Shown piece by piece: positions 31,867-33,943 of a stretch of DNA of 64,000 nt. Below the pieces are notes generated by a model. It made no database searches. It was not told the DNA's origin and worked only from the letters and a program-made list of their open reading frames with translations. The translations under genes and the position numbers were made by a program. The first letter of the stretch is position 1. Each line of letters starts with the position of its first letter. The DNA is from Rhodohalobacter sp. 614A (GTDB lineage Bacteria > Bacteroidota > Rhodothermia > Balneolales > Balneolaceae), in contig NZ_JAKEDS010000003.1 of the NCBI RefSeq assembly GCF_021462415.1, forward strand, positions 276,743-340,742, given 5' to 3'.

Positions 31867-32160
31867 ATGAACTACAGCGAATTAATAGAGCAGCTTTCTG
31901 AGCAAACAGGTCACTCAAAAACCAAGACAAAAGAGATATTAAGTGAAGCGATATCTGTGATGTCTAATCAATTGAGTGACGGAACAGGTATTTCCATACC
32001 TGATTTGGGGACGTTTCATACAAAGGTTAATGAGGAAAAAAAGGTATATAATCCCCACTATGAATCTTATATGATTGTTCCACCCAAGCGGGTTGTTGAT
32101 TTTAACCCCGCCACCGGGCTTAAAGAGGAAGTCAAGTTTTTGAGGCCAGAAAATGAGTGA
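31867..32160 (+). CDS. HU/IHF family DNA-binding protein
   Basis: The 97-residue protein has the two-helix N-terminal half (LIEQLSEQTGHSKTKTKEILSEA) and the beta-arm region DLGTFHTKVNEEKKVYNP, a divergent HU-like form common in Bacteroidota. It should bind and bend DNA as a dimer. The stop overlaps the start of the next gene by eight bases (ATGAGTGA), so the two HU-domain proteins are made together. They may form a heterodimer; that is inference. Confidence 0.9.
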   Translation: MNYSELIEQLSEQTGHSKTKTKEILSEAISVMSNQLSDGTGISIPDLGTFHTKVNEEKKVYNPHYESYMIVPPKRVVDFNPATGLKEEVKFLRPENE

Positions 32161-33595
32161 AAAAATCACATTCAAAGAATTGGTTCGCCTCATTGCAAAG
32201 CAATCCGAGCAGAGCGAATCTTCGGCCAACAGCTTTATTCATGAGTTGGTACAAATTATTGAAGGTGGATTGAAGCAGAGCGGCTCAGTCAGTATCTCGG
32301 GGTTTGGGAAATTTGAGCTCAGGTGGATGAAAGAACGCCCGGGAGTTAATCCTCAAACGGGTGATGAAATTACAATCCCCGGACAAAACAAGGTTGTTTT
32401 TAAACCCTTCAAAGCTCTGCGCGAAACCGTTAACAAGCCTTTTGAAAATCTTGAACCTGAAGTCCTTTCAGAAGAACCGACGTCTGAAAAGCCCTTATCT
32501 GAAGAAAAAGAACAGACTACCGAGGAGAAGAAAGAAACCTCAGGGGAGTTTGATGACGATCCCTTTGGACTTGAAGGAGTTTTTGCGACGGATGCCCCGT
32601 TTCATGCAGACGATGATGACCCATTCGACTCAGAACCTCCTTCCGGTTCAAGCGCTCCTTTTGAGGATGACGAAGACCTGGATCCGTTTGATGATGAATA
32701 TTTCTTTGAAGAGGAAGAGGCCCCTTTCGAAGCTGACGAGCCAATACAATCCGGCAAGAAAGAAACCGTTGATGATCTGATTTTTGAGTGGGATAATCCC
32801 CATTTTGGGAAGAAAGAAGTGGTAGCTTTAGAAGTGGAAGACGATGACGTTCTCGTCATCGCCAAAGAAGAGGAAGAAGAGCTCGTTGAGAAAAAACCGG
32901 CTGAGAAACCGAAAATGGCTCCTTTCATCCCCGATGAGTCGAAAATGGCCAAAGAGGTTCAAAAATCCGGGAGCTTCAGATGGTCGTATGCTGCCGCTGT
33001 AATCATCGTTATGATTGCTTTAATTCTCCTGTTTTGGATGATGCAACGAGACACCGAACCATCGGAGCAATTGACTACTGCAACGGATGAGCCAACCGAA
33101 CAGGTTTTTCAAGATCCCTCAACAACGGATGAAGCTACTGAACAAGGAACAGCATCAACTGAACCTCAATCTACAGTCGATGAAGAATCACCACCGTCAA
33201 CGGGCGGATCACCCCCTCAAACCGAGCTTGAAACAGAAAATTTTACGGTACAAAACGGCCAGTCATTATGGGATATCGCAGAAAGCCAGTTAGGAAATCC
33301 ATATTTATGGCCGGTTATTTATCATCTGAATCAGGATATTTTAAATAATCCAAATCAACTGTTGGCTAACGCTAATATCGAAATTCCCACCTTCTCCAAT
33401 CCGGATAATCTGAGTGAATTCGAGAGAGAGCAGGTTGCCCTTGGTTATTTCTCATTATATCAATGGAACCGGGAAAATAACCCTGATGAAGCACGCTACT
33501 TTTTATGGGCCGTTGGCGTTTTTTCTCAGGATTTACTGGATCAACCCCCATCTGAAGTTGATCCTCAGGATCTGGCTTTCGCGAGAAACCGATAG
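32153..33595 (+). CDS. HU domain - transmembrane - LysM fusion protein
   Basis: The 480 residues fall into four parts. Residues 1-90 are an HU DNA-binding domain (FKELVRLIAKQSEQ, SISGFGKFELRWM, GVNPQTGDEITIPG). Residues about 100-270 are a very acidic, Asp/Glu/Pro-rich linker. A single transmembrane helix spans about 277-299. After a Thr/Glu/Pro-rich stretch comes a LysM-like domain (about 363-415; VQNGQSLWDIAESQLGNPYLW). If oriented as expected, the HU part is cytoplasmic on DNA and the LysM part binds peptidoglycan in the periplasm, linking chromosome and wall. Bacteroidota have comparable HU-SPOR membrane proteins. It is coupled to the stand-alone HU gene by an eight-base overlap. Confidence 0.9.
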   Translation: MSEKITFKELVRLIAKQSEQSESSANSFIHELVQIIEGGLKQSGSVSISGFGKFELRWMKERPGVNPQTGDEITIPGQNKVVFKPFKALRETVNKPFENLEPEVLSEEPTSEKPLSEEKEQTTEEKKETSGEFDDDPFGLEGVFATDAPFHADDDDPFDSEPPSGSSAPFEDDEDLDPFDDEYFFEEEEAPFEADEPIQSGKKETVDDLIFEWDNPHFGKKEVVALEVEDDDVLVIAKEEEEELVEKKPAEKPKMAPFIPDESKMAKEVQKSGSFRWSYAAAVIIVMIALILLFWMMQRDTEPSEQLTTATDEPTEQVFQDPSTTDEATEQGTASTEPQSTVDEESPPSTGGSPPQTELETENFTVQNGQSLWDIAESQLGNPYLWPVIYHLNQDILNNPNQLLANANIEIPTFSNPDNLSEFEREQVALGYFSLYQWNRENNPDEARYFLWAVGVFSQDLLDQPPSEVDPQDLAFARNR

Positions 33596-33631: not shown

Positions 33632-33943
33632 ATGATACGTCATATTGTAATGTGGAAACTAAAAGAAAATGCTGCCGGTGCCACAAAAAAGAAAAATGCA
33701 GAAAAACTAAAACTCATCCTGGAAGGACTTCGGACAAATATCGAAGAAATCAAAGCGGTTGAAGTAGGCATTCAAATAAACGATGACGAAAAAGACGCGA
33801 TGGATGTTGTATTAATCTGCGATTTTGAAACGCAGCTCGATTTCCAGATGTATACCAGGAATCCCCATCATAAAAAAGCAAGGAGTTTTATAGAATCCGT
33901 TGCAGACAAACGATACTTCGTTGACTATAACGTAGATTTGTAA
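33632..33943 (+). CDS. Dabb (stress-responsive alpha/beta barrel) family protein
   Basis: The 103-residue protein begins MIRHIVMWKLKE, the standard Dabb opening, and ends with the RSFIESVADKRYFVDY segment. It forms a dimeric ferredoxin-like barrel in solved relatives. No catalytic residues are evident and the physiological role is unknown. AAAGGAG lies nine bases before the ATG, one of the clearest ribosome-binding sites in the window. It is probably co-transcribed with the HU-LysM gene 36 bases upstream. Confidence 0.92.
   Translation: MIRHIVMWKLKENAAGATKKKNAEKLKLILEGLRTNIEEIKAVEVGIQINDDEKDAMDVVLICDFETQLDFQMYTRNPHHKKARSFIESVADKRYFVDYNVDL

Follow-up and report, generated by a model that had tools for sequence, protein, structure and literature searches.

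Direct physical attachment of a bacterial chromosome to the cell wall has rarely been documented. The closest described systems are membrane-anchored HU proteins carrying a SPOR domain, a predicted kind reportedly set out by Burroughs and co-workers in Cell Cycle in 2017 (PF18174/PF18175). The HU-LysM pair analyzed here resembles the HU-CCDC81_bac/HU-SPOR system in that two HU domains are joined through a flexible linker and a single transmembrane helix to a domain of a peptidoglycan-binding type at the C terminus, but the wall domain is SPOR there and LysM here, and the arms, which are shortened or lost in both HU-SPOR subunits, are full length in the HU-LysM pair. TsaP and Kbp (YgaU) have the LysM subtype in common with the fusion, by sequence and by fold, but are without an HU domain, and we know of no DNA role for either of them. 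A nucleoid-associated protein that is likewise fixed in the membrane is Rv3852 of Mycobacterium tuberculosis, which has a C-terminal helix in the membrane and a link to cell-wall synthesis via Wag31; it differs from the fusion in being annotated as H-NS-like rather than HU and in lacking a partner-gene pair, and its abstract describes no peptidoglycan-binding domain in the protein itself (PMC8233713).

The earlier note on this DNA knew of no characterized HU-LysM fusion, and none is described in the open-access literature searched, which covers few subscription papers; a mention in the 2017 HU-superfamily paper is possible. The same search found no experiment on any member of the HU-TM-LysM group. 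The article of Burroughs et al. (2017, Cell Cycle) is cited in PMC12218091.

The window analyzed is a stretch of 64,000 nucleotides from Rhodohalobacter sp. 614A (contig NZ_JAKEDS010000003.1). A stand-alone HU gene overlapping a gene for HU, linker, transmembrane helix and LysM had been described in it, and both open reading frames were confirmed to the base on the plus strand of the window. The first (31867..32160) encodes a soluble HU partner of 97 amino acids and the second (32153..33595) a membrane HU-LysM fusion of 480 amino acids; they share an overlap of 8 bp, ATGAGTGA (32153..32160), through which we infer that the two genes are translationally coupled. Open reading frames on the opposite strand across the locus were rejected as lacking independent support. 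Further separate HU genes are found elsewhere in the genome, the strongest on contig C1. The soluble HU gene lies directly upstream of the fusion gene in 27/27 named Balneolaceae loci, with the identical 8-bp overlap in 24/27, and the fusion HU domain is under purifying selection (dN/dS 0.00-0.09), indicating that the pair is not a product of chance. The reading that we favor, and consider somewhat probable, is that a heterodimeric, membrane-anchored HU pair tethers the nucleoid to peptidoglycan, which partly bears out the tie between the two suggested in the earlier note.

The distribution of the HU-TM-LysM architecture was surveyed at several taxonomic levels. The nearest named relatives of the fusion belong to Rhodohalobacter and other Balneolaceae, and a search with the family alignment gave HU-LysM matches in 74 of the 92 Balneolaceae genomes and in 55 of the 66 good ones. 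Its absence from 11 of these 66 (G032, G064, G066, G069, G070, G074, G075, G092, G104, G108 and G113) indicates that the module is dispensable and can be lost. In the same class outside Balneolaceae, none of the matches listed covers both HU and LysM. A restriction to Balneolaceae, suggested by this class-level survey, was overturned by the surveys of the phylum and of orders: a different Bacteroidota order has an HU-LysM fusion in at least 25 of the 247 genomes surveyed, counting matches that cover the protein as one segment or as two. That order would be Bacteroidales, judging from named tblastn matches with the same gene order, the named carriers being Bacteroides finegoldii, Phocaeicola massiliensis, Parabacteroides distasonis and a Prevotella. 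The soluble partner was present at 20 of the 22 Bacteroidales-type loci from which the fusion ORF was recovered. The architecture, for which such a survey had been envisaged when the pair was first noticed, is thus widespread in Bacteroidota and not peculiar to one genome. Since it recurs both in halophilic Balneolaceae and in Bacteroidales of the human gut, the pair may be a widespread strap between chromosome and wall.

A tree built from 46 HU domains placed those of the Balneolaceae and the Bacteroidales-type fusions on one branch (support 99/96), indicating that the fusion HU domain has a single origin. The soluble partners grouped by lineage in the same tree, which did not resolve a common origin of the two partner groups. 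The whole two-gene module was likely inherited intact. A candidate pre-fusion HU neighbor in G125/G126 was rejected, the close HU matches there being plain stand-alone HUs.

Both HU domains were well above the curated Pfam cut-off of PF00216 (22.4 bits), the soluble HU scoring 73.0 bits over positions 1-90 of the 90-position profile and the fusion 81.9 bits over positions 3-90. The match in the fusion covers residues 7-94 of an HU domain that occupies residues 1-97 (32153..32443), and the Foldseek matches for this domain were HU and IHF. Like canonical HU/IHF proteins (PF00216), the pair has the full HU fold, the arm-tip proline in Balneolaceae and conserved basic C-terminal residues; it differs from them in its membrane anchor and LysM domain, its overlapping genes and its NCBIfam scores, which for both HU domains were far below the cut-offs of the HU-alpha, HU-beta and IHF-subunit models. 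Identity with an IHF equivalog was rejected on this basis (59.6 vs 111 bits for IHF-alpha, with other models lower). The families of the HU-SPOR type were not matched either, PF18175 giving 17.2 bits on the fusion (cut-off 35) and PF18174 also 17.2 bits on the soluble partner (cut-off 26).

Loss of the DNA-contact residues across homologues had been named earlier as an observation that would speak against a DNA-binding membrane HU. With positions numbered by E. coli HU-alpha, R58, P63, K83 and R86 were retained in all 27 Balneolaceae fusion HU domains, and the arm-tip P63 and K86 in all 25 Balneolaceae soluble partners. In Bacteroidales, P63 was lost in 23/25 fusions (V or I in 22/25) and present in 23/23 partners, giving 48/48 for the soluble partners of both lineages together. 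Since the Bacteroidales membrane HU is mostly without P63, it may itself contribute little contact with DNA. The mean net charge of the arm was +3.6 in Balneolaceae and +5.4 in Bacteroidales for the soluble HU, against -0.6 and -0.9, respectively, for the membrane HU. This computed asymmetry between a basic, P63-tipped soluble arm and a near-neutral membrane arm suggests that the soluble partner, and not the membrane HU, carries what looks like the main DNA-binding arm, the membrane HU acting as anchor.

The same genome contains a second overlapping pair, on the minus strand of contig C1 at about 455613-456978 (L006). The products of this sister pair are an HU of 69 aa with a short arm and an HU-linker-TM-SPOR protein of 401 aa whose HU domain is armless, so that the asymmetry between soluble and membrane HU is carried further than in the LysM pair. 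Matches to the HU-TM-SPOR protein were found in 90 of the 92 Balneolaceae genomes, some of them to SPOR only, and both sister genes were found at 23 of 25 fetched loci; split HU and HU-TM-SPOR genes also occur in a second Rhodothermia family. In other Bacteroidota HU-HU-TM-SPOR exists as one chain, suggesting by the Rosetta-stone argument that the two HU products act together. By analogy this argument may be extended to the LysM pair, and we infer that its two HUs are heterodimer partners.

In the tether that we favor, the small HU would dimerize with the HU domain of the membrane protein, its basic arm with the proline tip accounting for most of the hold on DNA. The fusion would complete the HU body and add a flexible cytoplasmic linker, cross the membrane once, N-in/C-out, and extend through some 60 residues of periplasmic linker to a LysM domain that grips the sacculus, anchoring the nucleoid to the wall with a putative role in nucleoid positioning or segregation. 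If this is true, what holds the nucleoid in place could be tested through deletion of two small genes. More tentatively, and with the balance tilting against it, we suggest that Bacteroidota may possess two parallel trans-envelope chromosome tethers, HU with HU-TM-SPOR and HU with HU-TM-LysM, in each of which a soluble, DNA-gripping HU would lock onto a membrane HU to form a direct mechanical link, switchable by the supply of the soluble partner.

The sister HU-SPOR pair adjoins a TolQ/ExbB-type gene, SPOR domains are established binders of septal peptidoglycan, and LysM modules are sometimes enriched at septa. The adjoining gene, together with this general knowledge of SPOR and of a possible septal enrichment of LysM, would suit a division or septum factor, in which LysM, in the manner of SPOR proteins, gathers the two HUs at the constriction site and links the position of the chromosome to division, through nucleoid occlusion or terminus handling. 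Such a role appears unlikely, because the HU-LysM pair of Balneolaceae has no adjacent division gene and a LysM domain by itself is no sign of septal targeting; it also overlaps the main explanation, namely a tether between nucleoid and peptidoglycan.

The tether requires a membrane-spanning protein with its HU domain inside and its LysM domain outside. Between the HU domain and the helix the fusion has a linker of 181 residues with a net charge of -44 and pLDDT mostly below 50, so that an acidic, predicted disordered cytoplasmic linker can be placed at about residues 98-276 (32444..32980). Across Balneolaceae the cytoplasmic linker ranges from 83 to 264 residues and from -81 to +3 in net charge. 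The acidic character noted before thus holds for this protein but not as a feature of the Balneolaceae family, being typical of the Rhodohalobacter sp. 614A fusion and of the Bacteroidales forms and not required. The proposal that a long acidic linker mimics DNA was rejected as a general function on account of this variation in length and charge.

The one transmembrane helix claimed for the fusion was borne out as a single predicted hydrophobic helix at residues 277-299 (32981..33049), placed there by AlphaFold; hydropathy averaged over 19 residues peaks at residue 279 (2.70). Its N-terminal flank has a charge of +3 and its C-terminal flank of -3. A topology with both ends on one side, raised earlier as an argument against the tether, was not what the Balneolaceae proteins suggested, since flank charge predicts N-in/C-out in 27 of 28 of them; among Bacteroidales proteins the same prediction is obtained in only 12 of 22. 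No N-terminal signal sequence was seen on inspection of the fusion. Judged from these sequence features, the fusion would be a single-pass inner-membrane protein with N-in/C-out orientation. Next comes the periplasmic linker, some 60 residues long (33050..33232) and predicted to be disordered from its low pLDDT. Among relatives the median length of this linker is about 50-60 residues, medians being used because the lengths come partly from a loose motif search in which single values (L066, L226) are unreliable. A linker of this length would in principle be long enough to span to the wall.

The AlphaFold model of the fusion, built with 29 sequences, consists after the HU domain of a disordered linker, the helix, a second disordered stretch and a very confident block at residues 361-480. 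The LysM domain (residues 361-413, 33233..33391) was modeled at pLDDT 94-97 with the order beta-alpha-alpha-beta and is followed by helices. It superposed on the LysM domain of Kbp with an rmsd of 1.1 A over 55 residues (Z 9.4); in a phmmer search against solved structures TsaP was the best match (1.3e-4), with Kbp at 0.0086, and NCBIfam PRK11198 matched the fusion at 3.6e-7. The Pfam LysM family PF01476 alone remained sub-threshold on the fusion (12.3 vs a cut-off of 20.9 bits), indicating that the domain can escape annotation. Eight of the 29 fusion homologues matched PF01476 at E up to 0.01, and the distant homologue L197 passed the cut-off (22.6 vs 20.9 bits). A LysM fold in the C-terminal part of the fusion, as first read from the sequence, is therefore well founded. 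SPOR was matched neither in the fusion nor among the families listed for the 29 homologues. The C-terminal helical tail (residues 420-480, 33410..33592), modeled as helices at pLDDT 94-97, is strongly conserved in Rhodohalobacter relatives and mostly missing from the Bacteroidales forms, and would be an accessory element.

The Kbp-type LysM fold also occurs in the baseplates of injection systems and in the potassium-binding protein Kbp, which are not known wall binders, so that the fold is no proof of peptidoglycan binding. These proteins are the closest structural matches, and together with the sub-threshold Pfam score they would fit a domain that serves as an ion or protein-interaction module, making the protein a membrane scaffold without a link to the wall. 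We regard this as highly improbable, given that no solved structure matched the LysM sequence better than TsaP, that chitin-oligomer-binding LysM structures superpose on the domain as well, and that the domain is predicted to be periplasmic, beyond a linker that could extend as far as the wall.

The gene next downstream in the window (33632..33943, plus strand) encodes a Dabb (stress-responsive A/B barrel) protein (PF07876, 78.6 bits). A Dabb gene follows HU-LysM in 27/27 related named Balneolaceae loci, and aconitase is divergent upstream in 13/27, some contigs ending close by. In two annotated Bacteroidales records the order is ftsY, rimO, HU, HU-TM-LysM, AAA ATPase and DUF58, and both genes of the pair are annotated there merely as "HU family DNA-binding protein"; if the tether is real, human gut Bacteroidales contain a ready-made one that is now recorded simply as HU family proteins. 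Conserved neighbors of this kind, Dabb in Balneolaceae and ftsY-rimO or MoxR-DUF58-Bat in Bacteroidales, are also what a membrane-anchored regulator might show, the HU pair binding or bending certain membrane-proximal promoters, LysM only localizing the protein or sensing peptidoglycan, and the output being gene expression instead of a mechanical tether. Among NCBIfam models the fusion HU scores best against IHF-alpha, though below the curated cut-off. On the other hand, the HU arms predict no sequence specificity and the neighborhoods vary by lineage, leaving no constant target gene, and a regulator therefore seems improbable.

The Bacteroidales pair lies between ftsY-rimO and the MoxR-DUF58-Bat cluster at loci L229, L230 and L196-L198. 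In one genome a transposase-like ORF (L198, 5869-7107) separates the HU-LysM and MoxR genes. Three records deposited as plasmids (NZ_OY725888.1, NZ_OY725834.1 and OY726008.1) resemble chromosome fragments, since they carry ftsY, ribosomal-protein genes or the conserved HU-LysM module.
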